Positions 5,466-61,283 of a DNA stretch of 64,000 nt are shown piece by piece. The stretch is from NCBI RefSeq assembly GCF_009905375.1, contig NC_133652.1, positions 120,549,797 to 120,613,796 on the forward strand, read 5' to 3'. Under the pieces are notes generated by a model that was not told where the DNA came from, made no database searches, and saw only the letters and a list, made by a program, of their open reading frames with translations. The DNA is from Apium graveolens. Its lineage: Eukaryota; Streptophyta; Magnoliopsida; Apiales; Apiaceae. The stretch's first letter is position 1; every line of letters begins with the position of its first letter. The position numbers and the translations under genes were made by a program.

Positions 5466-6030
5466 TGTTAGATATATTTGAGATGTCATGTCTAATCTGT
5501 TGTGTTTAGTTTCAGAACTTAATATCAGGACTTACTGGAAATATGAACTTACTGAAGTCAGAACTTATATCAGAACTTAAGGCCGTCAGGATTTATATCA
5601 GGACTTAAGTGCGGGTACTTCAGATAAGGAAAACAGCTGATTTACAGAAAATGATCGTGACTAAAATAATAGAAGATATGCATGAAGAGTTAGAAGACTA
5701 GAAGACTTGTAGAAGATAATATTTGATTGATATATTTTAGGAGACATAATTATATTCCATATCAATTAGAAGATATCTTGTAACTGTGTACTATATAAAC
5801 ACAACTTAGGGTTTACACTATATGTGTTATCATTCACGAGAAAGATTATACATTGTAACCTAGCAGCTCTTAGTGATATTGTTCATCACTGAGAGAGAAC
5901 AACTGTTCTATTATAACAGAGTTTATTTTATTGAATATACTTGATTAATGTTACATACTTGTGTTCGAAATCGATTTGATTGTATAAACACTATATTCAA
6001 CCCCCTTCTATAGTGGTGTGTGACCTAACA
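5466..6030 (+). repeat. 5' LTR of element A (565 bp)
   Basis: Starts TGTTAGATATATTTG and ends GACCTAACA, next to a PBS. It carries six copies of the family motif NTCAGRAYTTA, starting near 5511, 5524, 5557, 5569, 5585 and 5597. A TATA-like ACTATATAAAC lies near 5790. It resembles the 616-bp LTRs of F but is clearly diverged. Confidence 0.9.
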
Positions 6031-6045
6031 AGTGGTATTAGAGCC
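6031..6045 (+). promoter_or_regulatory. Primer-binding site of element A
   Basis: AGTGGTATTAGAGCC lies directly after the LTR. It matches the iMet-type site with one change (TTA for TCA). Confidence 0.8.
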
Positions 6046-6085
6046 TCTCTGTTGATTTACAAACAGTGAGATCCAGTTTACAATC

Positions 6086-7003: not shown

Positions 7004-7015
7004 TGGTCTTTGTGA

Positions 7016-10000: not shown

Positions 10001-10393
10001 GTTTCTTGGTTTAGCAAGAAACAGAAGTCAATTTCCACATCAACTACAGAAGCAGAATACATTGCTGCAAGAAGCTGTTGTGCACAAATTCTTTGGATGA
10101 AGAATCAGTTACTGGACTATGGGTTAGAATATTCTAAAATACCCATTTACTGTGATAATCAAAGTGCTATTGGTATGACAGGTAATCCAGTTCAACACTC
10201 AATGACAAAGCACATCAGTATTAGGTACCATATCATAAGGGAACATGTGATGGAAGGTAAAGTGGAATTGCATTTTGTCTCAACAGATCAACAACTAGCA
10301 GATATCTTCACAAAACCACTATGTGAAGCTACTTTTACAAGACTGGTAAATGAACTTGGAATGGTTTTAGGTTCTTTCTTAAAATCTGTTTAG
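7016..10393 (+). pseudogene. Element A protease-integrase-RT-RNase H, broken
   Basis: Copia-type pol. Protease: LDSGCSGHMTG, catalytic DSG at 7049-7057. Integrase: zinc-binding WHKRLSHLNF and ALCDSC segments (about 7430-7560), then core residues in RSDNGTEF (about 7807) and VVERKNRTLIEAA (about 7925). A Ser/Asp-rich linker spans about 8340-8690. RT has the YVDDIIFGS catalytic box at 9441-9467. RNase H has GYSDADFAGC, TEAEYIAA and ADIFTKPL. Breaks: one-base losses near 7325, 8285 and 9720 compared with F or D, stops near 7552-7564, and a stop in the linker at 8473. It cannot make a full polyprotein. Confidence 0.9.
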
Positions 10394-14800: not shown

Positions 14801-14887
14801 ATGAAAAGAAGGAAGATAACTGAAGAATCTAAGACAACCTCTGCCATAGCTCAAGTTGTTCATCAAAATCTAAGGTATCAATTCTAA
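11885..14887 (+). pseudogene. Element A 3' ORF (env-position protein), broken
   Basis: Unknown function. It starts MAPK as in F and shifts frame within the first 15 codons. The N-terminal domain reads FWRTGVYDDGG, LGYEKGLSKLGQLKR, KEWSSFFDCITRAF and NKCSNFDAIPI. A Pro/Gln and Ser-rich middle and a Lys-rich coiled-coil C-terminal part with EEIARRLFLKHNPEMDLE follow. The EWS..D..T..F..K.SNFD pattern is shared with the 3' ORFs of D and F. I recall databases naming such a domain 'putative plant transposon protein'. There are stops at about 12458, 12782, 13259, 13562, 13856 and 13967, plus frameshifts. No signal peptide or clear membrane segment is visible, so a true envelope role is doubtful. Confidence 0.75.
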
Positions 14888-16680
14888 CCACCATTGATTT
14901 AAATACAAGACAATATAAAGAAACTGTTGAAAATATGAGTGTAGAGATGTTTCATATCCACACAAACATGGTGGTAGCTACTGAGGAGGTGAGTAAGCTG
15001 TAAAAGTTGAATGAGAACCTTGAAATTGAGAAACACGAATTGGAATTGCAGCTTGTTGAGCTTGAAAGTGTCAAGCAAGAAAATGAATATTTGAAGAACA
15101 AGCTGAAGTGTGCTAGTGAAATTGAAGTTGTGTTGAGGGAAAAGATAGAGAAGAATGAGTGAAACTGAAATCTTTCTCAGCTAGTTGGCCAGTACCATGA
15201 TAAGAACAAACCATGTGCTAACATAGCTATTGGTTTGGACTATGATTCTTTGAATAGCAACAAGAAAAGTGAAGGTTATAAAGGAAAAGCAATTACAGGT
15301 CAAGATGTCCCAGTTATGCTGAGGAAAGTAGATGCACCTTTGTTCAAAGCATGTGAAGTCAATTTTAGTGAAGTTGAGTTGGTTATCAAGCAGGAGCTTG
15401 CAGATGAGGACAATGAAAAGAAATGCACAAAAACAACTCCAACTTCTAAACTGAAAAGAAGCCCAAGGTAGACCAAGTTTCTAAGAAGCTAATCAAAGAA
15501 ATCAAGACTGAGAATGCAGGAAAGAAAAATAAGAATAGGAATGGGAAAATATGAGTGAATAAAAGAAATAACATTGCATTTATTACAGATGCTCCCAGGA
15601 AATAATGTCAGAAATGTGGCTCTACAAATCACCTAACTCACCTTTGCAAAAAGGCTGTTAATGAGCCAAAAGTGGGAGCCTGTAGATAGAATGAATCAAA
15701 GGCTGAAGATCCCTATTCCTTCTGTGAAAAATTTGATTACATTCCTTGCATAATGACAAGCTGCATTAGACTGAGAGTAAATTTCAAAGATATAAGAATT
15801 GAGTCTACAGCTGAGAAGGGAATTGCAAATCAAAATTTGAACACAGTTCTTTTTGAATCATCACATTCTACTTCTGTAAATTCTGTTAACAAGAAGAAAG
15901 TACCCAACATTCCTTGGGTATCTAAACACACTTAATCCTCATTGTATGCAGGGCAAAGTGAAGAAGGTCATATGAGTCATAGACAGTGGATGCTCCTGGC
16001 ATATAACAGGTGATAAGGCCCTTCTATCACAATTTGAGGAGAAGGCTGGCCCATTGGTGACTTTTGGAGACAACAATAAAGGATTCACAATGGGACATGG
16101 AAAGTTAATTTCTGGAAATATTATCATTTAAGATGTAGCACTGGTAGCTGGTCTTGAGGTGAATCTCCTGAGTATCAATCAATTCACATATAAAGGATTC
16201 AATGTTTCATTTGACAAAGGATAATGCTCAATAAATAGCAAAAAGACCGGTGAAGTTGCTTTGAAAGGAATAAGAAAGGGAAGCTTGTTTGTTACAGATT
16301 TATACTCAGGAAATAAGGATGGAATATACTGCTTCTACACCAAGGCATCTGTTGAGCAAAGCAAGCTATGGCACAAAAAGCTCTCTCACCTGAATTACAA
16401 AGCAATCAATACCCTGGTGAAAAAGGAGTTAGTGAGAGACATGCCAAACTTGGAGTTTTCTCAAAATGAAGTTTGTGAGGCTTGTTAAAAAAGCAAAATG
16501 AAGAGATCAAGTCACAAGAGCAAAACTGTGAATTCTATAAGTGCATCTTTGCAACTCACTCACATGGACCTGGTTGGACCAGTTAATGTTTTATCTATTT
16601 CAAGAAAGAAATATGCACTTATCATTGTGGATGACTACTCAAGGTACACATGGGTAGAGTTTATGTATTCTAAGGATCAA
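14888..16680 (+). pseudogene. Fragment G: gag C-terminus, protease and integrase start of another SIRE element
   Basis: There is no LTR at the left junction. It begins in a coiled-coil gag part (NMSVEMFHIHTNM, then ELELQLVELESVKQENEYL). A second-type knuckle CQKCGSTNHLTHLC lies at about 15606-15647, and gag ends KKKVPNIPWVSKHT with stop TAA at 15933-15935. Sixteen nt later CAG/GG opens the protease, with IDSGCSWHITGD. Integrase zinc residues (WHKKLSHLNY and VCEAC) and the LTHMDLVGPVNV start of the core follow. Many stops. The knuckle and overall layout resemble element D more than A. It is cut at 16680, within integrase, by gypsy element C. Confidence 0.8.
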
Positions 16681-36945: not shown

Positions 36946-37969
36946 TGTTGTGAATATGTTGAGTACTTGATGATTACCTAAACAAAACATCTAAGTAGAT
37001 TTTACTTAGTGAAATAATGTAGCACTCGACGGATAAGAATTATAGTCCCGACGGATAACTCATTATAGTCCCGACGGATGATTAACTTATTATCCATCGA
37101 GTGAGTAGCTTATGTAATAATAAGTTTGTAGTACAGTGTTGTATGCACCTTTGTATAGAATCTGGAGTAGCATATAAGTCATGTTGACTTTAACTAGATA
37201 TGCAGAATAGGTTGATTAAGTGTACATAAATGATGTCTTGTAATTCTGCATAAGTGAAATAGAGTCAAGTGCCAAAATAGCTACCGACGGATGATTAACA
37301 AAGCCATCGACAGATGATCAAATGACTATCAACGGATGTTTAACATAGCAGTCGACGGATGATCAATTAAGTCATCGACGGATGATCTGAAAGTCGACAG
37401 ATGATCATATCAAGATTCAAACATCAGTTGAACAGTGAAAGCTGACACACAGCCGTTGAGTTGGATACAAGTACACTGTGAAAGCCCATTAACTGGGTAA
37501 TAGAGGACAAAAAGCAGAAAAGATCAAGACTGTTAGAATTTATATTTGTTCAGTTCTTTTGACTTTGTAATCTTGGTAATATATAAACCAAGAGAGTAGC
37601 AAATAGAAAAATAACTGAGATAGCTAAGAAACAACAACAGAGAAATCTTTGTAAGCATTATCTTTAGCATTTCCTGTGTTTTTAGCAGTTCTATTTGTGT
37701 AAGCAGCTGTGAGCATTTCTACACACAGAGTCCTCTCGATATATTAAATATATCTCTGGTGGAATTGTTTAAATCCACCAGAAAGTTTTTTAAAGACTCT
37801 TGTTTTTAATTACTTATGTTTTGATTCATTCAAGTTTACATTCCGCATTGTGTTAATCAAAACAAATATATCCATAATCGAGTTGAACATTTTTATTTCA
37901 AGAAAAAGGTTCAAGAATTCCATTCAACCCCCCTTCTGTAATTCTTGCTATATTGTTAAGGGACTAACA
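36946..37969 (+). repeat. 5' LTR of element D (about 1.02 kb)
   Basis: The right border GGACTAACA is followed by the PBS. The left border TGTTGTGAATATG is inferred. A TATA-like ATATATAAACC lies near 37580. Confidence 0.75.
37025..37405 (+). repeat. CGACGGAT motif clusters in LTR D
   Basis: First cluster: copies at 37025, 37047 and 37070, and an inverted variant at 37090. Second cluster: 37283, 37305, 37327, 37350, 37372 and 37391. Within clusters the spacing is 19-23 bp, mostly 22. The consensus is NTCGACGGATRA. Confidence 0.9.
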
Positions 37970-37984
37970 ATTGGTATCAGAGCA
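37970..37984 (+). promoter_or_regulatory. Primer-binding site of element D
   Basis: ATTGGTATCAGAGCA directly after the LTR, iMet type. Confidence 0.85.
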
Positions 37985-38030
37985 AGCTCTTAATCTACAA
38001 AGAGTTTAAAGATCAAAACAATTCAGCAAG

Positions 38031-40423
38031 ATGAACAAGAAAGATGTTGGAGTCAAGATTCCTTTTCTTGATAAAGATAATTACCATCATTGGAAGGTAA
38101 AGATGCATCTTCATATGCTTTCTCAAGATGAGGCCTATGTGGACTACATAGAAAGAGGCCCTCATGTTCCAATGAGAGCTGCAACAGGAAATGAACCATC
38201 TGTTCCAAAGCCAAGGCATGAATGGTCTGATCCTGATATTGAACAAGTCAGGAAAGATAAAAAGGCCATGAACATTCTGTTCAATGGTGTTGATGCAGAC
38301 ATGTTTGATAACATCATCAACTGCAAGACTACCAAGGAAGTTTGGGACACAATACAGATAATCTGTGATGGTACTGAGCAAGTAAGAGAAAATAAAATGC
38401 AGCTCCTGATTCAGCAATATGAGCATTTTCACAATGAAGAAAGTGAGTCACTCACTAACATTTTTAGTAGATTCCAAAAGCTACCAAATGCTCTTAAATT
38501 ATATGGAAGAGTCTATCAGACTAAAGACTCCAATCTGAAATTTCTCAGATCTCTTCCAAAGGAATGGAAACCAATGACAGTCTCATTGAGAAACTCACAA
38601 GATTATAAGGAGTTTACTTTGGAGAGACTGTATGGCATTCTGAAGACCTATGAGCTTGAGATAGAGCAGGATGAAAGAATGGAGAGAGGAAAGAAGAAAG
38701 GAGGATCCATTGCACTAGTGGCTGAACTGGAAAAGGAGAAGGAAGTGAAGATGGAAGCTGTGAAATCAACTTCAAAGGCCTGTGAAAGCAAGGGCTAGCT
38801 GCAGAAAGTGAAGATTCATTGAGTCAAGATGACATGGAGGACATTGATGAGCACCTAGCATTCCTTTCAAGAAGATTTGCCAAGCTCAAGTTCAAGAAGA
38901 ACTTTGGAGCTGCCAAGCCAAATAGAAACATGGTGGATAAATCAAAATTCAAGTGTTTCAAATGTGGCTTGGCTGGGCATTTTGCAAATGAGTGTAGAAA
39001 GTCAGATTCCAGTAAGAAAAGATTTGAGTCTGTGGATTATAAGCAAAAATACTTTGATCTACTCAAACAGAAGGAAAGGGCTTTTATTACACAAGAGAAT
39101 GACCGGGCAGCTGATGGTTTGGATGAAGATGAGGATGTCAGCTATGTCAATCTAGCCCTTATGGCCAAGTCTGATGAAACAGAGACAAGTTCCTCAAGCA
39201 ATCAGGTAATCACTACAAACCTTGCACATTTATCTAAAGCTGAGTGTAATGATGCAATAAATGACATGTCTACAGAATTGTATCATTTGCGTGTTACACT
39301 TAAGTCCCTCACTAAAGAAAATGCTAAAATCAAAGAAAACAACTTGTTTTTGAGTGAGAGGAATAATGTGCTTGAGTCTCAGTTTGTTGAGTTTGAGAAA
39401 CTAAAAATTGAGTGTAGAATTGCCAAGGAGGAATTAACTAAGTCCTTGAAAAAGGAAGAAATTTTAAAGAATCAGCTCGATCGTGAACAGGAGGTGATTA
39501 AAGCATGGAAAACATCCAGAGATGTTCATGCTCAAATCACCAAGGTTCAAGGAATTGAGTCTTTCTGTGATGAAGCCTGGAAAAAGAATAAGGAGAAACT
39601 AGAACCTACTTTGGTAGATGGATTGCTGACAGATGTAGACTCGACGGATGATGAGGACTATCTGTCGGATAACAAAAAGTGCTATCCGTCGAATGATAAA
39701 AATCCTCATCCGTCGGCTGTGAGCAAACCCATTAGCAAAGCCAAATTAACCAAGCTAAATGAAAAGTATGGGTTTGTTTCCAAGAACTTTGTTTCAGGAG
39801 AGTCAAGTCAAGCCAAGAAAGGGAAGAAGGCTAATGTTGGTCACATGACTGTCAAACAGTTAAGTGACAAACTTGAGAAGATAGAGGTAAAAACAGAGAC
39901 TAAAAGGAAAAACAATAGGAATGGTAAAGTAGGGATTAACAAACATAATAACTACACACCTGACAAATATGCTCCTAGAAATATCTATGTCAAGTGTGGT
40001 AGTGTAAATCATTTGTCTGTTAATTGCAAATCTGCCATGCCTACTCCCATGTCTGTTCAACCTCAATTCTCTAACATGAATGCCATGCCTCCCATGCCTG
40101 TTAATGCTATGCGTACACAGAACATGAATGCACAGTTTGCTAACATGCCATTTGCACCTAATCCATATTATGCTGCATACAATATGCCTCAAATGTCATT
40201 TAGCATGCCTTACTGGAATAACATGTTTGCACCAAGCATGCCATTTCCTGTTAGCCATAACATGCATGATAATTCTGGTGCATCTAGTGGTTTCAAAGAC
40301 CCAACCCAAATGACTAAGGAAGAATCTGAAATTCCTAAGTCAAATGAGTTGAGACCTAAGAAACAGAAGAAGAAAGCTAACAAGGCAGGACCCAAGGAAA
40401 CTTGGGTACCAAAATCAACTTGA
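38031..40423 (+). pseudogene. Element D gag, one frameshift
   Basis: Structural Gag. The start MNKKDVGVKIPFLDKDNYHHW is typical of copia Gag, and the capsid part runs to about 38790. There a single-base shift separates it from the next frame (AAESEDSLSQDDMEDIDEH). The first knuckle CFKCGLAGHFANEC is at 38953-38994. A coiled coil lies at about 39270-39600. The second knuckle reads YVKCGSVNHLSVNC, so its first Cys is lost (G has CQKC at the same place). A Met/Pro/Asn-rich tail follows at about 40036-40270. Stop TGA is at 40421-40423. Four copies of the D motif lie at 39649-39718. Protease is in another frame from this gag. Confidence 0.85.
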
Positions 40424-40437
40424 TTTGATTTTGATGT

Positions 40438-43400
40438 GTGCAGGGAAATAGAAGGAATCTTTGGTACTTGGATAGTGGTTGTTCAAGACACATGACTGGT
40501 GATATTACCCTGCTCGCAGAGTTTGAAGAGAGAGCTGGCCCAAGTATCACTTTTGGAGATGACAACAAAGGTTATACTGTGGGATATGGCTTGATTTCGA
40601 AGGACAATGTCATCATTGAAGAGGTTGCCTTAGTGGATGGTCTCAAACACAATCTGTTGAGTATCAGCCAGCTTTGTGATAAAGGCAACTCAGTAACCTT
40701 CAACAAAGAATCCTGTGTTGTGATTAATAATCAAAATATCAAAGTGGTTCTCACTGGTGTGAGAAGAGGAAATATGTATCTAGCTGACTTCAACTCAACT
40801 AAAGCAGAATCTGTAACTTGTCTTCTCAATAAAGCAAGTCAAGATGAAAGTTGGCTATGGCACAATAAACTATCTCATTTGAACTTCAAGACCATGAATG
40901 AGCTGGTAAAGAAAGAGCTAGTTAGAGGCATTCCTATGGTGGAGTTTACAAAGGATTGACTGTGTGATGCCTGCCAAAAAGGGAAGCAGATTAAAGCATC
41001 ATTCAGGAAGAAACTTGATTCAGCAATTGAAGAGCCTCTAAAACTGCTTCACATGGATTTGTTTGGACCAGTCTATATATTGTCAATCTCAAAGAAAAGA
41101 TTTTGCCTAGTAATTGTAGATGATTTCTCAAAGTTCTCTTGGACCTATTTCCTAAAGTCCAAAGATGAGGCTAGTGAAATCATCATCAATCACATAAGGC
41201 AAATTAACAATCATCCTGATTTCAAAGTTAGAAGAATCAGGAGTGATAATGGAACTGAGTTTAAGAACTATGTCATGAGAGCATTTTGTGAGGAAAATGG
41301 AATCTTGCATGAGTTTTCAGCAGCAAGGACTCCACAACAGAATGGAGTAGTGGAAAGAAAGAATAGATCTCTTATTGAAGCTACAAGGATAATGCTTGAA
41401 GAATCAAAACTACCAACATACTTCTGGGCTGAAGCTGTAAACACTGCATGCTACACTCAGAACATCTCTCTGATTAATCAAGCAAGATGCATGACACCTT
41501 ATCAATTGTTCAAGAACAAGAAGCCAACTCTGAACTTTCTTCATATCTTTGGCTGTAAATGCTATATTCTGAGAAATCAAACTGATCAAAATGGGAAGTT
41601 TGATGCTAAAGTAGATGAAGGAATTTTTGTTGGATATGCTGTTGGTAAAGCATATAGAGTCTACAATCTAAGAACCAACATTATTGTTGAATCTATACAT
41701 GTTGTGTTTGATGATAAAAAGATTGAAGGACTAATAGATGGAGATTACCATGAGAGCCTCAAATTCGACAATGTTGAGATGGTCAGTGATGAAAGTGATG
41801 ATGAGAGTGATCAAGAAACAGTGTCTAAGGATAATGCAGACAAATCTACTACAAATGAAGCACAAAACTCAACATCCGTCGAGTTACATAATGCTTCATC
41901 CGTCGGAAGGCAATCTGTATTATCTGTCGGAAGACAACTTGCCTCATCCGTCGGTACTCAAAATTCACCATCCGTCGGGTTATCAAAAGGAGCAGGAAGT
42001 CAAGGCAGATCACCCATAGAAAGCACCCCAATCTCAAATCAAAGATCCACAAACTCAGGGGGAGTTTCTAGCAATTAAAACTCAATCACACATCAAGACA
42101 ATATTGAGGTCTCTTCATCTAGGGCTAATCTACCTTAACCAAGAAAATGGACAAAAGATCACCCCTTTGAACTGATTATTGGTGATGTTTCTTCCAGAGT
42201 TCAAACCAGGAGAGCAACTCAAGAAGAATGTCTATACAGTAGCTTCCTGTCTAAGGAAGAACCAAAGAAGGTAGAAGAAGCCTTGTTAGATCCTGATTGG
42301 ATTTTAGCTATGCAGGATGAGCTAAACCAATTTGAAAGGAATAAAGTATGGAAGCTGGTACCCAAGCCTACAGGAAAGAATCCAATAGACACCAAATGGG
42401 TATTCAGAAACAAGATGGATGAAAATGGCATAGTAGTAAGGAACAAAGCAAGATTGGTTGCTAAAGGCTATTGTCAGCAAGAAGGAATAGATTTTGATGA
42501 AATATTTGCTCCTGTTGCAAGACTTGAAGCCATCAGAATCTTCTTAGCCTATGCAGCCCATGCCAATTTCAAGGTCTATCAAATGGATGTCAAAAGTGCC
42601 TTTCTGAATGGAGATTTGGAGGAAGAAGTGTATGTAAGTCAACCTCCTGGCTTTGAAGATCCAAATTTCCCAGAGTATGTCTATTATCTACTGAAAGCAC
42701 TTTATGGACTGAAGCAAGCACCTAGAGCCTGGTATGACACTTTATCAAAGTTCCTTTTAGAAAATCACTTCACAAGAGGTACTGTAGATAAAACTTTATT
42801 TTTCAGAAATATGAATGGCTCTAGCATACTTGTTCAAATTTATGTAGATGATATTATTTTTGGCTCTACAGATGAGAAACTTTGTAAAAAGTTTGCCAAA
42901 CTGATGCAAAGCAAGTATGAAATGAGTATGATGGGAGAACTAACTTACTTTCTTGGTTTACAAGTTAAGCAAGTTAGTGATGGAATATTCATTAGTCAAA
43001 CTAAATATATTTTTGATCTTTTAAAGAAGTTTGATCTAATGGATTGCACATCTGCAAAAACTCCCATGGCCACTGCAACTAAGCTTGAACTAAACACTAC
43101 TGAAAAGTCTGTGGATATTTCAAGTTATAGAGGCATGGTTGGCTCACTTCTATACTTAACAGCTAGTAGGCCAGATATAATGTTTGCTACATGTTTATGT
43201 GCTAGATTTCAGGCTGATCCTAGAGAGTCTCATTTGATAGCTATTAAGAGAATTTTCAGATATCTCAAAGGAACACCAAACCTTGGCATTTGGTATCCTA
43301 GAGATTCTGGTTTTGATCTAACTGGTTATTCAGATGCAGATTATGCAGGTTGCAGAATTGATAGAAAAAGCACTACAGGAACCTGTCAATTTTTAGGAGA

Positions 43401-43785
43401 CAAGCTTGTGTCCTGGTTCAGTAAAAAGCAAAATTCAGTTTCTACTTCTACAGCTGAAGCTGAATATATTGCTGCTGGCCGTTGCTGTGCACAGATTTTA
43501 TGGATGAAAAATCTATTGCTAGACTATGGTTTGCAAGTTGAAAGGATTCCTATTTTCTGTGACAACACAAGTGCAATTGCCATCACTGAAAATCCAGTGC
43601 AACATTCAAGGACAAAGCATATAGACATCAAGTACCATTTCATAAGGGAACATATAATGAATGGTACTGTAGAGTTACATTTTGTTCCAAGTGAGAAGCA
43701 ACTTGCAGATATTTTTACCAAGCCACTGGATGAATCCACCTTTTCTAGGTTGGTAAGTGAGTTAGGTATGCTTAATTACTCTTGA
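40438..43785 (+). pseudogene. Element D protease-integrase-RT-RNase H, three nonsense codons
   Basis: One continuous frame. Protease: LDSGCSRHMTGD, DSG at 40470-40478. Integrase: WHNKLSHLNF and LCDAC zinc residues, core RSDNGTEF near 41241 and VVERKNRSLIEAT near 41349. A Ser-rich linker with five motif copies lies at 41872-41981. [25 protein letters not shown], and YVDDIIFGS at 42841-42867. RNase [37 protein letters not shown] and ADIFTKPL. Stops: TGA at 40957, TAA at 42076, and TAA at about 42136. The two TAA codons stand where CAA is expected. All catalytic motifs are otherwise present. Confidence 0.92.
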
Positions 43786-44304
43786 ATTTATCTGAATTAT
43801 TTTGCAAGTTGAAAAGTAGCCAGAAATTTAACTGATTTTTAGTCTTGGATGAAAATTTTGGCTAAGTCAAAATTTGCATCTCGACGGATGACCATTATCC
43901 ATCGAGTTGAGTCATCCGTCGATATACAAATTGTAAATAAAAATTAATTACTTTTCTGGAGTATTTAAAGCTCGACGGATAACAGCTTATCATCATCCGT
44001 CGAAGTGTCTAAACCTTAACCGTTAATTCTCTGAACATTATCCATCGAGTATACTTACAGTTTGTAAGCATTACACGACGGATAATGGGTAGAATTTTTA
44101 CAGTTTATTTTAAAACGGCTGTTTTAGGCAATTTCTTTTGGGTAATTTACTTCTCTTTATTATTTTTATCCGTTGATTTTGAGTAAAGTATAAAAGCTTA
44201 TTTTATTCTAATCATTTTCTTTTATCACTCTCAAATTCAACTGTGTTATTTCATTCTCTCTCAAGCAAAAATCCTCTTTCTCTTCAAGCTTTTCTTCTCT
44301 AACA
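43786..44304 (+). other. Element D spacer with motif copies and internal promoter
   Basis: Non-coding. Seven copies of the CGACGGAT motif in both orientations start at 43879, 43894, 43910, 43970, 43992, 44037 and 44073. Facing pairs could form hairpins. A TATA box and CT-rich leader follow. Confidence 0.75.
44189..44196 (+). promoter_or_regulatory. TATA box candidate, element D 3' ORF
   Basis: TATAAAAG followed by a CT-rich leader (44215-44300) and the ATG at 44305, about 109 nt on. Same layout as in A and F. Function is inferred. Confidence 0.5.
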
Positions 44305-47300
44305 ATGACACCCGTAGTAAAAATCATGTCACAGACTGGGTTCATCTATGAGAAGAACAACTTCACTGCTTTGGTCAATAAGGGGATTCAACAATCTGAA
44401 GACTATCATAAGATGATGGACTTCGTGAAAAACTGCAAGTTAAGTTTTGCAATGCTGGAATCACCCACAATTTATTATGAAGTTGTTGAGGAGATGTGGA
44501 CAACAGCAATCTACAACTCTACTGACAAAATAATCACTCTGACCATCAAAGGTAATGATTTCTGTATCAATAGTGATGTAATAAAAGCATGTTTCAAGAT
44601 TCCTGATGATAATGTAACTGCACCACACACTGACACTGATATTGTCAATATGCACAATTCCATTCATTATGCACTTCCTACTGCAAAACTAAGTGAAATT
44701 AGAAGACTAGGTCTTAGGAATGAATGGAGTTACTTGTGTGATGTAGTAACTAAAGTCTTTTCTGGAAAAATCAGTAATTTTGATTCTGTGAACATTTCCA
44801 TGCTTAACATGCTATACATGCTAGTTACAGACAAATATTACAATTTCAGTGACCTTGTTGTGTATGAGTTAGGTTTTAAACTAGGTGACTTAGCCAAAAG
44901 AGGAAAGAATGTTTACTATGCTAGATTTTTTATGCTTTTGGCTAACCATCTTTGTCAAGAGATTGTACTTGAGAACCCTGATAGCAAATTAGCTTGTTGG
45001 GTTCAAGAGAGAAGAATTATTGCAGACTTGAACAGAGCCAACCATCACAGGGATGTGCCAATGTTCTATTTTCCTGTAATGCTGACACCTCAGGTAAGTG
45101 AGGTAAGTTCATCCATACCCTCAACCATTCCAATCTCTTCTATTTCTTTGACTTCAGGCATGTCTATGGCAACTGTGGCAATGACCAAACAGTTGCCTAC
45201 CAAAGCTGCCAAAACAACTGCTATTTCTAAATCCAAATCAAAGAAAACCCCCTCTGGTATCTCTCAAAAGGTACCAGTTGAAAAATCTACCAAAGCCAAA
45301 GAGGGGAGTGTGGAGGAGGGTAAGGTAGGTGAGGGAAGGGGTGAACATCAAAGAAGCCCCAAGGATAAGGTTGGAGAGTTGAGTGAATCCCAGCCTAGCC
45401 ACACTGCAGTTTCCCAACAAACTGTAGTGCTTAAAAAGGACAAAAGCTCACTTCTAGCTGCATCCTCCCAAAAGGATGTGGCTATTGAACAAAGCTCTCA
45501 TCCAAGAGCACAGGCCAAGAGGGTTAGGGACACAAGCTCACACCAAACTTACACTAGAAAGAAGAAATCCAAAACAACTGGGGATGCACAGGGCACACAC
45601 TTAGTGCAAACTGGTGCTAAAGACACAGTCCCCGCACCTTCTCAAATTCAGATTGATGTGGCTCCAATAAATGTGGAGTCACAGCCAAAATCTCTCATAA
45701 TAGAAGCCACAGAAACACAATACTCACCAACTAACTCACTGGAAGTGGACATGATAAACACTTCAATTCCTGATTCCCCTTCTTTAACTTTGTTGGGGAA
45801 GCCAAAATCTAGTGCAAGTGAGCATAATCTTTTAGATGATTTGTTGGCTCACTTGCCAATTCTTTCTGATTCTATTGTGACATCTGTGCCTCAAATAAAT
45901 TCAATCAACACAGAGTCAACAATAGTTTCTCTTCCCACCTCATTCATTTCTACTCACTCGATGGATATTGCTCATCCGTCGAGTAGTGATTGTATCCCGA
46001 CGGATAAGCTTAACAACAGTTATCCGTCAGATAGCTTTACCACTCACCCGACGGATATCACTTATCCGTCGAGTGTCTCTGCACAACTTTAAACTTCAAT
46101 AATTTCAAGTGCAGAAGATTTGGTGGTAATACAATCACTCTTAGGACTGAGAGAGGAGAGTGCATTGAGTGAGAGGCTGGGTTGCTCCCAGGAAAAAGGA
46201 GAGGAAAAGAGTGAATCTCAGCAATCCATTCATTCAGGATTGGCAAAAGTGAGTGAGAGGAGTCCCACCTTAGTAGGTGAAGGTAAGGGTATAAGGGTGG
46301 GGAGCCAGGGTGAGACCCTGATGCAACAAAAGAGAGAATATGAGAGAAAGGAAGGTACTGGAGAAATAAGGATGGAACCAGTCATTGCTAGTGAGTCAAT
46401 GATTGTGAATGATGCTGAAAAGGAAAGACAATTTCAGCAACATTACAAAGCTGTAATTGATAACATTTCCTTGGATGCTGACACTTTTACTCACCCTGTT
46501 TCAACCTATCAACTGTTGGCTGCTCAGGGCAATGTGGAGGCAGAGCAGACTTTGAATCTAGTGCACACCACAGAATCTCTTCAAAGAGATAAAGCTGCTG
46601 TGAACAGAATGCCTTCTCAAGCTGGAGAGCCATCTGAAGAATTTGGAGTAAATTCTGATGATGATGACTCTGGTTCTTTGGATGGAAGCATGAACTTAGG
46701 GGGAGCTGAAGGCCCAAGTTCTGCTTTCAGTTTACCTAAATGAGCATGGGCAAAGGAATTTTCACCAGGGCAATTTGAGGTGTCTTTGGTAAAACAAGTA
46801 ATAGCTATTCAGCAGGCCCTTCAGGAAGCTTCAGATGCTGGTACCAAGGCTGTTCTTCAAGCTCACCTAGACTCTTTACATTTAATGAAGATCCAACACT
46901 CAAGACAGAATCTCAGTGTGGATGAATTGAAAAAGGAGATAGCAGACTTAAAGACATATAACTCTGAGAAGCTGGATTCAATAATGCCATATGGTACCAT
47001 GCATGATCTATTACTAAGATTAAGGAGAGAATCAGATTCTGACAAGAAGATAGCCAAGCTGGAGAACAGAGTTCAGGTTATTGAGAATTCAGTGGCTCTG
47101 CTTCTTCAAAATCAACAGACTCAGACAAATCTTCTTATGCAACTGGCTAAAGCACAAGGCCTAACTCCTCCACTTGATGATAACAAAAAGGGGGAGAGAG
47201 AATCAAGTAAGGGGGAGAAAGGTCCAATTGAGGGGGAGAAACTTCTAGTTCAAATCAGCAAAGTAATTATACCTTCAATTACTATCTCCAAGCCACCAGT

Positions 47301-51801: not shown

Positions 51802-52417
51802 TGTTAGATATATTTGATAATGTCATGGCTAATATGTTTTATGTTTAGCTTTCAGAATCTTACGTGAACAGGATAAATCAGTACTTAACTGTTGATCAGT
51901 ACTTATACTGGAAGTCAGGACTTAAGGATATCAGTACTTATATTATCAGGAGATAATCATCAGAAGATAGATATCAGAGCTTAAGTGCTGAAGGACAATC
52001 AGATAAGGACAGTAGCTGATTAAAGGAAAGAAGATCGAGATAAACATAAGAAGAGATATGCATGAAGAAGGAATTCCGTAAAGAATGGAATACTTGGAAG
52101 AAAAGATATCTGATTGATATATTTTAGGAAGCAGAATTATATTCCATATCAATTAGCGATTATCTTGTAACTGTGTAGTATATAAACACAGACATAGGGT
52201 TTACACTATAAGTGTTATCATTATTAGAAAAGATTATTCATTGTAACCCTTGCAGCTCTCGTGATATTTGTTCATCACTGAGAGGTAACAGTTCCATACT
52301 GTAACAGAGTTTATTGTTTCAATAAAGTTTGTTTTCTGTTACTTAAGTTCTTAAAGTTCGATTTGAGTGTACTATACACTGTATTCACCCCCTCTACAGT
52401 GTGTGTGTGACCTAACA
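51802..52417 (+). repeat. 5' LTR of element F (616 bp)
   Basis: TGTTAGATATATTTG to GACCTAACA. Motif copies NTCAGNACTTA start near 51877, 51895, 51914 and 51930. A TATA-like TATATAAAC lies near 52171. Confidence 0.95.
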
Positions 52418-52432
52418 ATTGGTATCAGAGCC
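52418..52432 (+). promoter_or_regulatory. Primer-binding site of element F
   Basis: ATTGGTATCAGAGCC directly after the LTR, iMet type, with full match to the usual site. Confidence 0.88.
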
Positions 52433-52473
52433 TATCTGTTAACATACATACAGTTAAAGATCCAAACACAATC

Positions 52474-55400
52474 ATGTCGGACACAGAAACTCCAACTAAG
52501 CCTACCACAACTGAGGAACCACCAAAGACACAAATTCAGAGTCGGTATGAGACCATCAGAGCCCCATACTGAGACCATCTGAATATCCCATATAGAAGGT
52601 AAGGATGACCATGTTCCTGGAAGCAACAGATCCAGAATACCTTGATAGAATCAAGGAAGGTCCTCACAAACCAACCAAACTCGCAGTTGCAGTTGCAGGT
52701 GAAGCAGCAAAGACCGTACCAAAGGAGAAGAGTGATTATACTGCTGAGGACATAGCATCAATTACTAAGGATGCTAAGGTACGACACTTACTGCATAGTG
52801 CCATTGATAATGTAATGTCAAACAGGGTAATCAACTGCAAGACTGCTAAGGAGATATGGGATGCTCTGGAAATAAGGTGTCAGGGAACTGACACAATTAA
52901 GAAGAACAGGAAGACAATACTCACTCAAGAGTATGAACACTTTGACTCAAAGACTAATGAGTCATTGAATGATTTATATGATAGATTTGTCAAACTTTTG
53001 AATGATTTGTCATTGGTTGATAAAGAGTATGATCTTGAAGATTCAAACCTTAAGTTCCTGTTAGCTCTTCCTGAATGCTGGGATTTGAAGGCAACGATAA
53101 TAAGAGACAACTACAATCTTGATGAAACAACTCTTGATGAAATCTATGGAATGCTCAAGACTCATGAGCTGGAGATGGAACAAAGAAGCAAGAGGAAAGG
53201 AGGAAAGTCAAGGACAGTTGCTCTTAAGGCTGAAGATGAATTCCCCAAAGCAGCTTCCTCAAAGAAAGACAAGGGTAAAGCTCTTTTCATAAAGTCTGAT
53301 ACTGAGTCATCAAGTTCTGAGAGTGATGATGACTCAGATTCTGAAAGCTTGCCTGAGACTGATGCTGATGAGGAGATGATGAAGCTGTGTGCTCTTATGG
53401 TGAAAGGAATCACAAAGATTGCATACAGGAAGTTCAGGAAGGGAAAGAAGTTTTCAAGGAAAGGCATAAGTTCTGATAAGAAGAATTTCAGAAGATCTGA
53501 AGGCAGAGGAGGAAAGTCTGACAGAGGAGATTACACCAATGTTAAATGCTATAACTGTGGTGAGAAAGGCCACATATCTCCTGACTGTAAGAAGGTAAAG
53601 GGTGACAAAGGCAAGGCTCTTGTCACAAAGCAGAAAAGCTGGACAGACACCTCAGACTCTGAAAGTGAGGAGAACTATGAATTGATGGCAAATGCTGATA
53701 AAGAAAGTGCTGAGAGCAGTTCTGAAGCTGCTGAAACAAAGGGCAACAGGAAAAATATTCTAGTTCTGGACAGTGGATGTTCAGGACATATGACTGGAAA
53801 TAAGGCCCTGCTATCAGACTTTGTGGAGAAAGCTGGCCCAAGTGTTTCTTATGGAGATGGCAACATTGGAAAAACATTGGGATATGGCAATATCAATCTT
53901 GGAAATGTCATAATTAAACAAGTAGCTCTGGTCTCAGGACTTAAACACAACCTACTGAGTATAAGTCAAATCTGTGACAGAGGTTATCATGTTGATTTCT
54001 TTGAAGAACACTGTGAAGTTGTGAGTAAATCTAAAGGCAAAGTTGTTTTGAAAGGATACAGACGTGGTAACATTTATGAAGCTAAGCTTTCAACAAGTAC
54101 TGATGGTTCTGCAATCTGTCTGTTAAGTAGAGCATCAATTGAAGAAAGCTGGAATTGGCATAAGAAACTCTCTCATTTAAATTTCAACAATATAAATGAA
54201 CTGGTCAAGAAAGATCTTGTGAGAGGATTGCCAAACACAGTATTTGCTCCTGATGGTCTTTGTGATTCATGTCAGAAAGCCAAACAAAGAAAATCTTCAT
54301 TCAAGAGCAAGACTGAATCATCAATTCTTGAGCCTTATCATCTTATACATATTGATCTATTTGGTCCAGTAAATGTCATGTCTATTGCAAAGAAGAAGTA
54401 TGCGTTGGTCATAGTGGATGAGTTCACCAGATACACATGGGTGTATTTCTTGCACACAAAAAGTGAAACTGCATCTATCTTGATTGATCATGTCAAACAG
54501 CTGGATAAAATGGTCAAAGATTCTGTGAAAATTTTAAGGAGTGATAATGGCACTGAGTTCAAGAATTTGATAATGGAAGAGTTCTGCAAAAGCCATGGAA
54601 TAAAGCAGGAATTTTCTGCTCCTGGAACTCCACAGCAAAATGGAGTTGTTGAAAGGAAGAATAGAACTCTCATTGAAGCTGCACGTACAATGCTTGAAGA
54701 AGCAAAGCTTCCAACCTATTTCTGGGCTGAAGCTGTGCAGACTGCTTATTTTACTCAAAATGCAACACTCATTAACAAGCATGGAAAAACACCATATGAG
54801 ATGGTGAAGAAAAAGAAGCCAAATCTGAAATATTTTCATGTATTTGGATGCAAGTGTTTTGTTCTCAAGACTCATCCTGAACAGCTATCAAAGTTTGATC
54901 TAAAAGTTGATGAAGGAATCTTTGTTGGATATCCACTTTCCACAAAAGCCTTCAGAGTCTATAATTTGAGAACAAAAGTGGTCATGGAATCTATCAATGT
55001 CTCTTTTGATGACAAGAAGATCACTGGTCTTAAAGATTTCATTGACCATGATCAGCTGAGATTTGAAAATGAAGACTCATATTCTGATACTAAAAATCCT
55101 GATAGTCTAAGTCCTGATACTGCAAACTCTGATGGATTAAACTCTGATGTTATTAAAACTGTGGTGACTACGTTAAAGGAAGATGCACCTATGCAGGGGG
55201 AGCATACTCAAGATCCTACCACATCTCAAGAAACATCAGAACGTGCATCTGGCTCTTCAAGTTCTGATTCGTCAAGTTCTGATAAGCCAAGTTCTGATAG
55301 TGCTGAAAATCTAAATACTGAAGAATCCAACTCAGAGAGCATAGTTTCAGGGGGAGCATCAGAAAATGAAAATGAAGATAGCATGGATCATGGGGGAGCA

Positions 55401-55496
55401 TCCAGTTCTAGAGAAAACCTTCCATCTGCAAGGAAGTGGACAAAATCACATACACCTGATTTGATAACAGTCTCAGTTCGACCTAGAATATGTTGA
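52474..55496 (+). pseudogene. Element F gag-protease-integrase, truncated before RT
   Basis: Start MSDTETPTKPTTTEEPP at 52474. Compared with A, one base is lost near 52560 and a Trp codon is TAG soon after; then one frame is open to 55496. Gag capsid: EIWDALEIRCQG. Knuckle CYNCGEKGHISPDC is at about 53550-53590. Gag runs into protease with no stop (KGNRKNILVLDSGCSGHMTG, DSG from 53769), unlike A, D and G. Integrase: WHKKLSHLNF, LCDSC, RSDNGTEF near 54538, VVERKNRTLIEAARTML near 54645. A Ser-rich linker with AAGTTCTGAT copies follows. The frame ends with eight unrelated residues after HTPDLIT. RT and RNase H absent. Confidence 0.92.
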
Positions 55497-56250
55497 AGTG
55501 GAAGATTAATAGTCACTATGATTAGGATTAATGGTATTCGTACTTGAACAGTCCACTGTTCTTGTGTCTTGTGCGGTCTAGACCATGATTCCTTTTTCCA
55601 ATGACTGTTATTCTTTTTCAAAGTCTAGGGAGACGAGGTAGAATTATGGTATTCTACCTGTCAGAATTAAATATCTTTGCGTCTCTTGGCATTCTCTTGC
55701 CTATATAAGCAACCACTTCACATCAGTCTTTCCATCACATTCTTCTCACACACTTATCTTCCTTTTTCTGTCAAAAACACAATGGTTCGATACAACATGT
55801 TTTTGAACTACCAAACCTTCAATATGGAGCTAAGTTGTGCCGAGTGGCAGCAGGAGTGGCATGTAACAGCCATTCCTGAGGAGATCTGGGATTCTGTCCC
55901 ACAGGAGGTGCTGACTCACCTTCTATTCTTCTATATGGATTACCATCGCCATCTGGAGTGATTGGAGGAGGAAAGGCGGGAAACTATCCGTCAGCAAGAG
56001 CGAATCATCCGACTCGCCATCTTGTTTGTCGAAGATAGGAAGAGGAAGATGACTTAATCTTGTCTTCTTCCTGTTCTTCTTCATCCTCAGCTTTGTCAGG
56101 CTTCTTAGCTAGGACTAAAGCTGTTGATGTTAGGATTAGGAGCTTAGGGAAAATCTTGTATAAGTATTGATGTAATTTCCATTTCATAAATGTATTGTCT
56201 TGATATATTAATGAAAGTTGTTTTTACTTCAAGATTTTATCTCTGAGTTA
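55468..56250 (+). other. Non-family cassette in place of RT-RNase H
   Basis: Not present in A or D at this place. It looks like a small transcription unit: TATATAAG at 55702-55709, a CT-rich leader, ATG at 55782, a short ORF, then an A/T-rich tail with ATTAATGAAAG near 56208. The right border is not sharp; by about 56590 the sequence matches the family 3' ORF promoter region again. Confidence 0.6.
55782..56057 (+). pseudogene. Small ORF in the F cassette, one internal stop
   Basis: Not recognised. Begins MVRYNMFLNYQTFNMELSC and has 59 codons to a TGA at 55959-55961. The frame then stays open for another 31 codons (ERRETIRQQERIIRLAIL and a KRKM end) to TAA at 56055. Read through the TGA it would be a 90-residue helical, charged protein rich in Trp and Glu in its first half. 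It could be a captured host gene piece or an accessory ORF of a related element. Confidence 0.5.
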
Positions 56251-56591
56251 TTTCATCTTGTGTTGATAAATCCTGATTGATGTTCTGATGACCATATATA
56301 TTTTGTTTTATATTAAGTTCTGATTCATTTTCAGCACTTACTCATCTAATTTATCTTGGTCATTTTCATGTGATGTATTTTCAGAATATCAATGATGCAG
56401 TGAAAAATAATTCAATCAGTACTAATGGTTTAAATTTTGAATTAAAACTGTTTCTCTTGATTAATGGAACGGTTTTTTCCTTGAAACTAGGCAACTGGGT
56501 AAGTAATGATTCCTGTTTTCTCGAGCCCAGTAACTGACCGTTATTACTGCATGTCTGACAGGTGTCCAACGGTAACATTTTTTGTTCAGAG
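56251..56591 (+). other. Element F spacer before 3' ORF
   Basis: Non-coding; contains AAGTTCTGATTC near 56317 and other TCTGATG copies. Leads into the TATA box at 56592. Confidence 0.55.
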
Positions 56592-56599
56592 TATAAGTA
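56592..56599 (+). promoter_or_regulatory. TATA box candidate, element F 3' ORF
   Basis: TATAAGTA, then a CT-rich leader (56620-56690) and the ATG at 56755, about 156 nt on. Upstream CAGGTGT is shared with A at about 11664. Function is inferred. Confidence 0.5.
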
Positions 56600-56754
56600 C
56601 AATAGAGAGAAGATTTCTTTAATCTTTTATTTTCTTTATACTTTATCTCTCTCCTTACTTTTACTCTCTTTCTCCTTCTTTCTCACGTTGGTTTTTCATA
56701 CAGACATTATCTCAAACACCCAACAGGCATACTTGAATCTCAATATTTTTTCAC

Positions 56755-59700
56755 ATGGCACCAAAGGATTTAATCATTGATGGAGCAAAGTTTGTTCCAA
56801 ACAACTATGCTGCAATTCTTGATCATGCTGAAGCTCCATCTGAATTGCACTTTGTGCAAGATCTTCTTGCACATAGTGAGGTTGGGTACGCCTTAACTCA
56901 GCCTGAATTATTTTCAAGTCAACAAGTTCTGAGGTTCTGGAGGACTGGAGTTTTTGATGATGGTGGTAAATGAGGAACTCCCAGTATTTTTTTCCAAGTG
57001 GGTGATTCATCCTATGTAGTCACTCCTGGTACAGTACGAAGAACATTACATCTTCCAGAAGATTGTACTTTCTCTATACCAGAGGAATCAGAACTTCGGG
57101 AGTTAATGACTGATTTGGGATATGAAAAGAGTCTGATAAAACTAGGACAATTGAAACGGGCTCATATCAGAAGAGAATGGAGTTTCTTCTTCGATTGCAT
57201 CACCAAGGCTTTTGGCAACAAGTGTTCAAACTTTGATGCTATCCCAATCATGAGTCAGCACATCGGGTATTCACTTATCAATCAAACTCACTTTGATTTT
57301 GCACCTGCTTTAATTGGTTTTATTGGGGGTAGGATGACAGAGGATAGAACTGTTGTTTACTTTGCTCGATTCTATCAACTTATTTATACGTATTGTACTG
57401 ATGAACCCCAGTTAGTCAGTACTCAAACCCCACCTTTTAAGGTTGCAAAAAGGTACTTTAACGACTTGATAAATGCTGACACAAAGAAATCAATGGTGAG
57501 ACCATTACAGATTCCTCAGTCTGTGAAACATATTCTGGTAAATGCTGATCCTGCTACTTACAAATCTGTTTACTCCAATGTTCAACCAACTCACCATAAC
57601 CAAAATTCATCATTTTCAGTCCCTACCACTCAGGGTATATCTCAACCTACCCTCAGAACTTATCTCAAATCCTATCTCTCCACTTCACAAACTGCTCAAC
57701 CTTCTTCTTCAGCACCTACTGTGAAGCCTACATCCTCTAAGCCAAAGAGAACAAAGACTGTTCTTCAAACACCTCAAAAGAGGAGGAGGATTACTTTGAG
57801 AGATGAATTAGATTCTGAGGACCATATTCCTTCTTCAGAACCTGTGGTAAATGAAGCTGAGAAGGCAACTTCTCAGAAGGATTCTGAAATTGGGGGTTCT
57901 AGGCTTCTCAAGAGGCTTAGACGAATGATAGTTCCTGAAACTCCCAAGGAATCCAAATCAACAAGGAAGTACAAGAAACAGAGGGCACAAAGGCCAGTTT
58001 CAGATGATGAGGAGGAAGTAGCTAAGGAAGGGGATCAGGAATCTCTGATCTCACAAGACAAGGAATTTGCTCCAGTCACTTCTTCTCCATCAACTCCATC
58101 TCAGGAAGCTGTATCTGACAAGGCTAACTCACCATCTGTGTCTCTTGTTGATCCAGGCACAAGTGCTGAAATTGATATTCAGAACCTGGTTGTGCCTGAA
58201 ATACTTTTCTTAGAAGCTCCAACAGCAAATAATCCTTCCACAACACCTGTTACTGCTGCTGTTCAAACTCCAAAGTTATCAACAACACCTTCTCTGCATC
58301 AAGATGCTGATGATCAGATTTTAGGTGAGCATCAGGATATGGCTGTTGATCAGAACTTAGTATCAGATCAGCAATTAGAGGATGCTGAAGCCTCCATTGC
58401 TACTCACACTGTTGTCTTATTAGACGATACTGATTCTTTAAGTTCTGATGCTGCAAATGTTGGAGATACTGGTGAAGCTGCTCCAACTGTAGATGCTGAT
58501 GAAGCAGGTCCTTCAGGACATACTCCTCCACCGACTCTTCCTAAGTCTGAACTGGTAAAGGAGTTTGTTATCAGGGATGCACCAGTGCCTTGGAGTGAAA
58601 CTCCTGCAGGTCAGGAGTGGACTAAGGAATGGAACTCAGTTTCATGTGTTCCAAATGCTTTACATCTTGCTGAGCACTTGACTAAAGCTGATGAAATGTT
58701 AAATTCTGATGATTTTAAAACCCAGCTTAGAGTCACTGCATTGAGTACTAAACATCTTCATTAAACTACTCATGCAGAGCTACACAAGATTCAGGAGAAC
58801 TTTATCAAACAGGAACAAGTTTGGAAAATTGATAAGAAAAAGTTCTTTCAACCTACCATTGACAAGATTGCTTATATTGAGAAAACTCAAGAGAAACAAC
58901 AAGCTCAGATTGATCAAATTCTGACAAATCAAGCTTCTCAGCAATCGCAACTTACTGAAATCCAGACCTCAGTGGAACTACTTATCTCTCTTTTACTACC
59001 TGCTGATGCCAAAAAGGGGGAGAAGGTAATTAAGTCCAAATGCAAAACCAACAAGACACTGCAAGGAAAGGATGATGGAAAAGATGACCAAGGAAACTCT
59101 GGAATGGGTAGCGGTCATAGTCAAGGTAGAAGGTTTACATCAAGACAAGCTAGTCACAGAACAAGTTCTGATACTGGGAAAAGAATAAGTTCTGCTGCTG
59201 GTAAAAGGATAAGTTCTGATGAACTTCTAGATCTTGATGAGGAAATATCAAGACAGTTATTTCTTCAAGAAAATCCAGGAATGGACTTGGAAAGTTTAAA
59301 GGAAGAAGAAGCCAGACTTAAATCAGAGAAAGTCACATCTAAATCTGAAGCTTCTGGTAAAAAGTCACTTCCAAAACTTAAAGGCATTGTTATCAAAGAA
59401 AGGACACATACTGAAGCAACATTGGCTAGATCACAACCACAGATAGATCCAAGATCCAAGGGTAAAGAAAAGGTTGGTGAACCTATCAAGGGTTACGTAC
59501 CTCCTGAGGAAGAAGAAATTGCTGATTAAAAAGATGATCTTCCTTTGACTTCAAGAAAAGTTCTTAAAACAACCTCTGACATGGCTCAAGTTGTTCAGAG
59601 TCAAGAAATTGTAAGTTCTGATATTCAGAAGAAGCAAGTAACCTCTGACAGTGCTCAAGTTAACTTGATATCAGAAAATAGATCAAAGACACTCCTACCA

Positions 59701-60459
59701 GGATTCACTAAAGCAAAACAGACTCAATCTTTGAAGACTACTGTAAGTGGTTTTGAAGCAAGAGTAGTTACTGGAAAGGAAGCTAGAGATAAAACTGGAT
59801 TGGGAAGTGCTGATGAAAGAAGAGTACACAACACTACCAATGATCCAACTTCCTTGAGTGAACCAAGTATTGGAGCAACTCCTGAGAGATTGAATCAACT
59901 GGAATCTGTACAGATGGTTTACCATACCTACTTGAAAGAATACATCATGTTGTATTTCATGACAGATGGTAGGGTTTATCATATAAGACAAAATGCCATT
60001 CCTTTGAAGAATTTTGAAGAATTGGAGCATGTACTTTTCTTACTTCAAGTGGATGACAGAATAACAGAGACTGCTGCAAACTACTTAAAAGAACAGATTC
60101 AGAGACAGAAAAGGCTTTATTCTGTTAAGTCTGACAGCATATATGTTCCAAAGTACAGAGATCACAATGGTGATATTGTTGATATGAAGCCTAATACTGC
60201 ACAGATCAGAACATATCTTGGTATTAAGGGACTTGAATTCAATCTAGAGTCTGACAAAGCTTATGTCATAAGACTAGATCAGGAGTTGAGAAAAGCAAAG
60301 ATCAATGATCTCAGAGCTGCAATCTTTCAAACTGGTGAAGATACTGCAGAGCTTAAAGATGTCAAAAGGAGAATGATTGATGAACTCAGATATGCTGAGA
60401 AATGTTTGTTGAAGAACTATCTCAGAACAACTCCTGACATCAGAGAGATCAGAAAATGA
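56755..60459 (+). pseudogene. Element F 3' ORF (env-position protein), three nonsense codons
   Basis: Start MAPKDLIIDGAKFVPNNYA. One frame to TGA at 60457-60459, with TGA at about 56971, TAA at 58762 and TAA at 59527. N-terminal domain: FWRTGVFDDGG, LGYEKSLIKLGQLKRAHIR, REWSFFFDCITKAF, NKCSNFDAIPIMSQHIGYSL and FIGGRM. The middle is Pro/Ser/Thr-rich. A coiled-coil segment lies at about 58780-58990. A C-terminal domain includes EYIMLYFMTDGRVYHIRQN and YFMTDG-type hydrophobic patches. Motif copies AAGTTCTGAT lie at about 58440, 59163, 59212 and 59612. It is the most complete copy of this protein here; function unknown. Confidence 0.82.
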
Positions 60460-60655
60460 TGAAGCCAAGTCGAAGATCTACAACTGCTTAAATTCTGATA
60501 TTTATACAGATTGAAGTTGTTATCAGAAGTTAAAATTGGTAAAAACTTTAAGGACTGTAAGTTGTAGCTATCTAGTCTATTTCTCATGCATTTGTACTTA
60601 ATGTTTTTGACATCATCAAATATCTGTTAAACTTGTATATTTTGTTAATTTACAA
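60460..60655 (+). other. Element F 3' untranslated segment
   Basis: Short non-coding stretch between the 3' ORF stop and the polypurine tract. Confidence 0.6.
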
Positions 60656-60667
60656 GTTGGGGGAGAT
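60656..60667 (+). promoter_or_regulatory. Polypurine tract of element F
   Basis: GTTGGGGGAGAT directly before the 3' LTR. Confidence 0.85.
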
Positions 60668-61283
60668 TGTTAGATATATTTGATAATGTCATGGCTAATA
60701 TGTTTTATGTTTAGCTTTCAGAATCTTACGTGAACAGGATAAATCAGTACTTAACTGTTGATCAGTACTTATACTGGAAGTCAGGACTTAAGGATATCAG
60801 TACTTATATTATCAGGAGATAATCATCAGAAGATAGATATCAGAGCTTAAGTGCTGAAGGACAATCAGATAAGGACAGTAGCTGATTAAAGGAAAGAAGA
60901 TCGAGATAAACATAAGAAGAGATATGCATGAAGAAGGAATTCCGTAAAGAATGGAATACTTGGAAGAAATGATATCTGATTGATATATTTTAGGAAGCAG
61001 AATTATATTTCATATCAATTAGCGATTATCTTGTAACTGTGTAGTATATAAACACAGACATAGGGTTTACACTATAAGTGTTATCATTATTAGAAAAGAT
61101 TATTCATTGTAACCCTTGCAGCTCTCATGATATTTGTTCATCACTGAGAGGTAACAGTTCCATACTTTAACAGAGTTTATTGTTTCAATAAAGTTTGTTT
61201 TCTGTTACTTAAGTTCTTAAAGTTCGATTTGAGTGTACTATACACTGTATTCACCCCCTCTACAGTGTGTGTGTGACCTAACA
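60668..61283 (+). repeat. 3' LTR of element F (616 bp)
   Basis: Same length as the 5' LTR. Four differences: AAAAGATAT to AAATGATAT, ATATTCCAT to ATATTTCAT, CTCTCGTGA to CTCTCATGA, and ATACTGTAA to ATACTTTAA. Confidence 0.95.

Follow-up and report, generated by a model that had tools for sequence, protein, structure and literature searches.

The word in element D

The 64-kb window analysed here, positions 120,549,797 to 120,613,796 of celery (Apium graveolens) contig NC_133652.1, contains a long terminal repeat (LTR) retrotransposon, element D, in which a short DNA word recurs in coding and non-coding parts alike. We took D to span 37019-48006, counting from the start of its TG...CA LTR; TGGTATCAGAGC near 37972, after the 5' LTR, we take to be the primer-binding site. 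With its integrase ahead of an RVT_2 reverse transcriptase (RT), the copia gene order, and with five copies of the octamer AGGGGGAG, several of them in the 3' region, D is a Sirevirus of the Ty1/copia type; the available text of PMC2829016 describes this octamer as a feature of the Sirevirus polypurine tract.

On both strands of the window, CGACGGAT occurs in 22 exact copies, all 22 inside D between 37027 and 46071, with none in 15000-36900 or 48007-51801. Dinucleotide shuffles of D (37019-48006) gave a mean of 0.008 copies (maximum 1, n=500), and a second set a mean of 0.003 (maximum 1, n=300). Together with copies differing by one CpG transition, variants that were sought in D only, the count rises to 33 sites: ten in the LTR, four in gag, five in the integrase-RT linker, seven in the spacer plus an outlier at 44168, and six in the 3' open reading frame (ORF). 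The initial annotation had proposed about 32 sites, 22 of them exact, and a chance expectation below one, in agreement with these figures; its assignment of clusters to compartments also holds, while its gag coordinates, 39649-39718, had to be corrected to 39640-39717. Allowing up to two mismatches to CTCGACGGATRA, we found 31 sites in the whole window, of which 30 lie in D and one of these in the RT, probably by chance. The 22 exact copies contain 44 of the 73 CpGs of D. Adjacent copies are mostly spaced by 22-24 bp, or by 15-17 bp in some inverted pairs. Among genomic copies, LTR array 2 varies in length by whole units of ~22-23 bp (loci L165 and L168).

Table 1. Features of elements D, E and A in the window
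Feature	Position	Strand	Remarks
5' LTR of D	37019..37970	+	TG...CA; boundaries approximate, set by eye
LTR motif array 1	37025..37101	mixed	37027+, 37049+, 37072+, decayed 37092-
LTR motif array 2	37283..37404	+	six copies, all +, 19-23 bp spacing
TATATAA, likely TATA box	37580..37586	+	downstream of both LTR arrays
gag	38031..40423	+	two ORFs in different frames, zinc knuckle; PF14223, PF00098
gag motif cluster	39640..39717	mixed	39642+, 39660 decayed -, 39684-, 39708-; readings STDD, YLS, YPS, HPS
GAG-pre-integrase, integrase and SH3-like domains, then linker	40438..42078	+	two ORFs; from ORFs and domain matches
Integrase-RT linker array	41872..41981	-	five copies (four exact), all -, 24-bp spacing
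Reverse transcriptase	42283..43785	+	PF07727; without exact motif copy
Spacer array	43880..44087	mixed	43882+, 43897 decayed -, 43914-, 43973+, 43995-, 44040 decayed -, 44076+
TATAAAA, candidate internal promoter	44189..44195	+	between spacer array and 3' ORF start
3' ('envelope-like') ORF	44305..46092	+	595 aa; more same-frame ORF pieces past stops to ~48009
3' ORF N-terminal domain	44305..45063	+	predicted VANC21-like fold; structure model
3' ORF motif cluster	45957..46073	mixed	decayed 45959+, 45974-, 45998+, decayed 46022-, 46049+, 46064-
Three AGGGGGAG octamers	47189..47238	+	Sirevirus polypurine tract octamer; two more in D at 42057 and 46698
Sister element E	51802..61283	+	AAGTWCTGAT in LTR, gag-pol ORF including linker, spacer and 3' ORF
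Sister element A	5465..14900	+	related to E; AAGTTCTGAT/AAATTCTGAT in LTR, linker, spacer and 3' ORF; boundaries approximate

Across the 3.33-Gb celery genome, the pattern CGACGGATN{10,20}CGACGGAT occurs 48196 + 47906 times (96,102), as against 0 + 5 for the reversed pattern. A genome search with the RT of D listed 86 places from 184033 first-look candidates, and 30 of these, including the copy in the window, were cut out. Linker and spacer motifs are present in all 30, at nearly fixed positions; many of these loci have lost individual sites or hold them in decayed form, and the LTR, gag and 3' ORF clusters were found in each of the six copies sampled for them. Related copies lacking the motif, which the initial annotation had named as the finding that would speak against it, were thus not encountered among the 30 excised. 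Fixed positions by themselves prove little, because D-family copies are closely related. Viral contigs were considered as further carriers of the motif and rejected: they hold at most six copies per stretch (80 counted of at least 120 stretches), which we take to be chance in GC-richer DNA, and an RT scan of these contigs gave no match.

Constraint on the word as DNA

Exact copies in D divide equally into 11 coding and 11 non-coding ones. Synonymous-codon shuffles of the D ORFs (n=2000) retained a mean of 0.18 (maximum 3) in place of the 11 coding copies, and 17 of the 18 TCG, ACG and CCG codons in these ORFs lie within motif copies, decayed ones counted. The exact coding copies give three peptide readings, STD/PTD, HPS/YPS and SVG/SVE, with the linker array reading TSVE, SSVG, LSVG, SSVG and PSVG, and the 3' ORF cluster encodes part of a tail predicted to be disordered. 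The earlier contention that protein sequence does not explain the motif is borne out by the shuffles. Substitution inside and outside the motifs, a comparison likewise proposed at that stage, was measured in 29 of the 30 excised copies (L137 was dropped), and motif columns were less diverse in both linker and spacer. Pairwise diversity in non-CpG motif columns was 0.0037 in the linker (20 columns) versus 0.0243 in the rest of it, and 0.0086 in the spacer (32 columns) versus 0.0442, the overall value for the RT being 0.0120. Random 8-mer sets were equally low in diversity in 6 of 5000 cases for the linker and 5 of 5000 for the spacer. CpG retention, taken as a methylation footprint at the motif, showed no difference.

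It seemed conceivable that the word is a by-product of neutral spread, either as a minisatellite-like unit copied by template switching or as a repeat at the protein level. The 22-24 bp spacing, the variable number of LTR units and the 8-residue repeat encoded by the linker would fit such an origin, which is difficult to reconcile with the loss of the motif in synonymous shuffles, with its three peptide readings, with the constraint on its bases in linker and spacer, and with the joint difference between families of sites in five compartments described below. Given the counts, neutral spread is unlikely, and with all points weighed together we give it hardly any credence.

Concerted change of the word between families

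The sister elements A and E both lack the D word and share AAGTWCTGAT instead, which is absent from D and occurs once in 15000-36900 and not at all in 48007-51801. There are 15 copies in E, one LTR counted, and 8 in A, compared with shuffle means of 0.10 and 0.13, and the exact word is present in linker and spacer in nine of nine A-family copies (A and eight copies from 117 listed places). Coding copies in E number 11, where 0.59 were expected (maximum 5), and nine of the nine S[ST]D tripeptides in the ORFs examined are written AGT-WCT-GAT. Since the plus-strand coding copies of E share one reading, some of the constraint in this element could lie on the protein; the copies in its LTR and spacer are non-coding. 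Tripeptide repeats in 9 of 29 homologues of the E 3' ORF showed nothing clear.

Comparable cluster sites are present in 3' ORF and gag homologues, including those of celery, carrot and hogweed. The predominant readings of their minus-strand sites are HPS/YPS, HPL/YPL and HQL/YQL, corresponding to TCGACGGAT, TCAACGGAT and TCAACTGAT, respectively, and the plus-strand site reads STD whichever of the three words is used. Sites within one protein agree at 0.79 in the 3' ORF homologues (shuffled mean 0.44, maximum 0.67; 19 of 62 homologues have a cluster) and at 0.70 in gag (shuffled mean 0.38, maximum 0.55; 52 distinct clusters from the best 120 of 123 homologues), clusters being delimited by a definition of our own; several homologues mix readings, and shared ancestry contributes to this agreement. 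The remaining homologues, including some of the gag and 3' ORF proteins of hogweed, are fragments or have no cluster peptides. Two carrot 3' ORF proteins (P0012, P0056) read HQL at all three sites and three carrot gags (P0112, P0131, P0143) at both, the other carrot gags being HPL or mixed; judged from these proteins, the carrot word would be TCAACTGAT. Pairs of the carrot-type word are scarce in celery (48 versus 9 in the control). D-type homologues with a motif cluster also include P0062 from the parasitic plant Orobanche hederae and P0099, a Rhizophagus irregularis record that resembles carrot gags and may stem from root-culture contamination.

A further celery family, F, was reached through the gag protein P0069, which reads YPL, HPL and HQL; 57 places were listed and four loci excised. 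In LTR and gag, TCAACGGAT is present and TCGACGGAT absent in four of four loci, with one or two TCAACTGAT each. One copy traced downstream carries the word in linker, spacer and 3' ORF, where the orientations follow the order +-+-+- as in D. This copy contains 35 CAACGGAT, 3 CAACTGAT and 0 CGACGGAT, compared with 2, 1 and 22 in D (Fisher 3e-14 for the CAACGGAT and CGACGGAT counts, sites treated as independent). A second copy (L206-L208) had no word in the downstream stretches, which are unlike the element, and is presumably interrupted. The words of F and D are one CpG transition apart; a merely decayed D word was considered as the origin of the F word and discarded, as some CGACGGAT would be expected to remain and none was seen. 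The word is family-specific, and it differs between families in a concerted manner.

Pairing in RNA, with inverted copies forming hairpins or long-range pairs, would survive such concerted change too. Folding of single sequences gave z-scores of -4.9, -0.4, -4.0, -2.9, -5.4 and -7.4 for six D segments, as this idea would have it, but of -1.7, -0.9, -3.8, -0.4, -0.3 and +0.9 for six A/E segments, and the second LTR array and the linker of D hold one orientation only. We regard a role of the motif in RNA as very improbable.

The 3' ORF product as a possible reader of the word

Among the PDB entries listed for a model of the 3' ORF N-terminal domain, the complex of VANC21 with its target DNA ranks first by a clear margin, and the model of the whole ORF matches VANC21 as well; the domain is thus predicted to have a VANC-like fold. 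At the sequence level, a search for VANC homology (DUF1985/DUF287) gave no match, with a DUF1985 alignment of four near-identical rows and searched sequences that may exclude 9LNJ, and similarity to PF20167 (Transposase_32) was weak (E 0.012, under the cut-off). A search of BFVD for a viral fold, such as that of an envelope protein, returned no match at E 0.001.

On balance, we consider it somewhat probable that the 3' ORF encodes a sequence-specific, VANC-like DNA-binding protein, that the motif is its site, and that the two counteract silencing along the whole element. The protein would bind clusters of the 8-12 bp motif ahead of the LTR promoter, ahead of a likely internal promoter that serves the 3' ORF, and in coding regions, at the least in the closing part of the 3' ORF, whose product is predicted to lack structure there. 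Protection would be carried along the body of the element by the sites in gag, in the linker and in the ORF tail, and occupancy over its full length would hold the element in, or bring it back to, a state open to transcription and free of silencing, in the manner of VANC on VANDAL elements. As families diverge, the protein and its word would change in step, such that each family activates itself only. In D, arrays precede both the TATA-like site of the LTR and the TATAAAA ahead of the 3' ORF; the order array-TATAAAA-ATG recurs before the 3' ORF in one F copy, A has TATAAAT there, and no such site was found at this place in E. Read from this order, the 3' ORF product may direct activation or anti-silencing to its own element.

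Another protein of the element, the Gag zinc knuckle or the integrase, might instead recognise the motif, in DNA or in RNA, in the course of packaging, assembly or integration. Retroelements need packaging signals, and genomic RNA contains the internal copies; the use of both orientations and the placement of LTR arrays upstream of the TATA-like site argue against this possibility, which we consider quite improbable.

In the Arabidopsis VANC/VANDAL systems, as far as the available text of Hosaka et al. 2017 (PMC5735166) and Sasaki et al. 2023 (PMC10398659) describes them, short family-specific repeated words evolve together and differ between related families, as they do here, and the elements likewise encode a variable protein. 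The AGTWCT of A and E fits AGTWNT, which is common to the words of VANC21 (YAGTATTAY) and VANC6 (AGTTGTCC/AGTTGTAC), possibly by chance. VANDAL sites are reported to be non-coding (PMC5735166, in the part available), whereas 11 of the 22 exact copies in D are coding. VANDALs, moreover, are DNA transposons and D is an LTR retrotransposon, and the search described above detected no sequence homology of the 3' ORF to VANC. D would be VANC-like in its working and is not filed as a VANC family member. The resemblance to VANC that the initial annotation had suggested is upheld as regards predicted fold and family-specific word, while binding by the 3' ORF protein and relief of silencing are what we infer. 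Unpublished VANC structures are mentioned in the available text of two meeting reports (PMC12859917, PMC8756742).

The LTR and pre-3'-ORF arrays of D correspond in place to the RM boxes of Sireviruses, which Bousios et al. 2010 (PMC2829016) locate in the LTR and before ENV and propose to be cis-regulatory. According to the available text of that paper, RM boxes are all palindromic and nearly confined to the LTR and the pre-ENV linker (77 of 79 linker copies precede ENV, and two elements have additional ones where ENV begins). D shares with them a family word with at least eight copies in the LTR (10) and upstream of the ENV ORF (spacer 7 plus outlier). However, CTCGACGGATRA is asymmetric by inspection, with many copies in inverted pairs, and the D word is therefore filed only as corresponding in place, not as an RM member; it also extends to gag, the integrase-RT linker and the 3' ORF end. 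Of the CGG-CCG signature of RM boxes, the D word contains CGG and the A/E word neither part; one published RM (Tnd-1) also lacks CGG-CCG (PMC2829016). A maize Sirevirus LTR palindrome, CACCGGACNNNGTCCGGTG, has been discussed as a small-RNA hotspot (Bousios et al. 2016, as rendered in the available text of PMC10760457 and PMC5311732); like the D word it is clustered in the LTR regulatory region, but it is palindromic and mentioned there for the LTR alone.

The cis-regulatory proposal for RM boxes (PMC2829016), together with the position of the arrays, which precede TATA-like sites both in the LTR and ahead of the 3' ORF, would also suit host transcription factors that bind the arrays as promoter or internal-promoter boxes, the family words differing because different host factors were recruited. 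Copies in gag, linker and 3' ORF end would be left unexplained, as would the fact that D and F, in the same host, each use a word of their own throughout, and we consider this account unlikely.

With some doubt, we extend the anti-silencing proposal to a tentative broader one, in which the Sirevirus envelope-like gene would be a VANC-type anti-silencing factor and its word, spread along the whole element and into the Gag and integrase genes as well as its own gene, would be rewritten together so that each family rescues itself only. Two puzzles would thereby be joined, the plant envelope-like gene, whose function the available text of PMC2829016 (2010) terms unproven and highly controversial, and the RM boxes, whose binding factor it leaves unnamed, and both are testable with one purified domain. 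If true, self-directed anti-silencing would extend from a DNA transposon group to very abundant retrotransposons, and a regulatory code would be kept within protein-coding sequence. In mostly non-subscription literature, neither motif arrays within the coding parts of Sireviruses nor an envelope-like ORF resembling VANC appeared among the matches listed, and the matches listed for the motif strings had titles unrelated to retrotransposons.

D is broken off at 48007, without a 3' LTR inside the window. Two stretches in direct orientation (48007-48183 and 63822-64000) share 94% identity over 179 bp, which suggests that D was entered at 48007 by a further LTR element and that E is nested within this insertion; the 3' LTR of D would then lie beyond the window. 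No RT was found in E between linker (~55496) and spacer (~56160); with LTRs 99.35% identical and a 963-aa gag-pro-integrase ORF, E is perhaps a recently moved non-autonomous Sirevirus.

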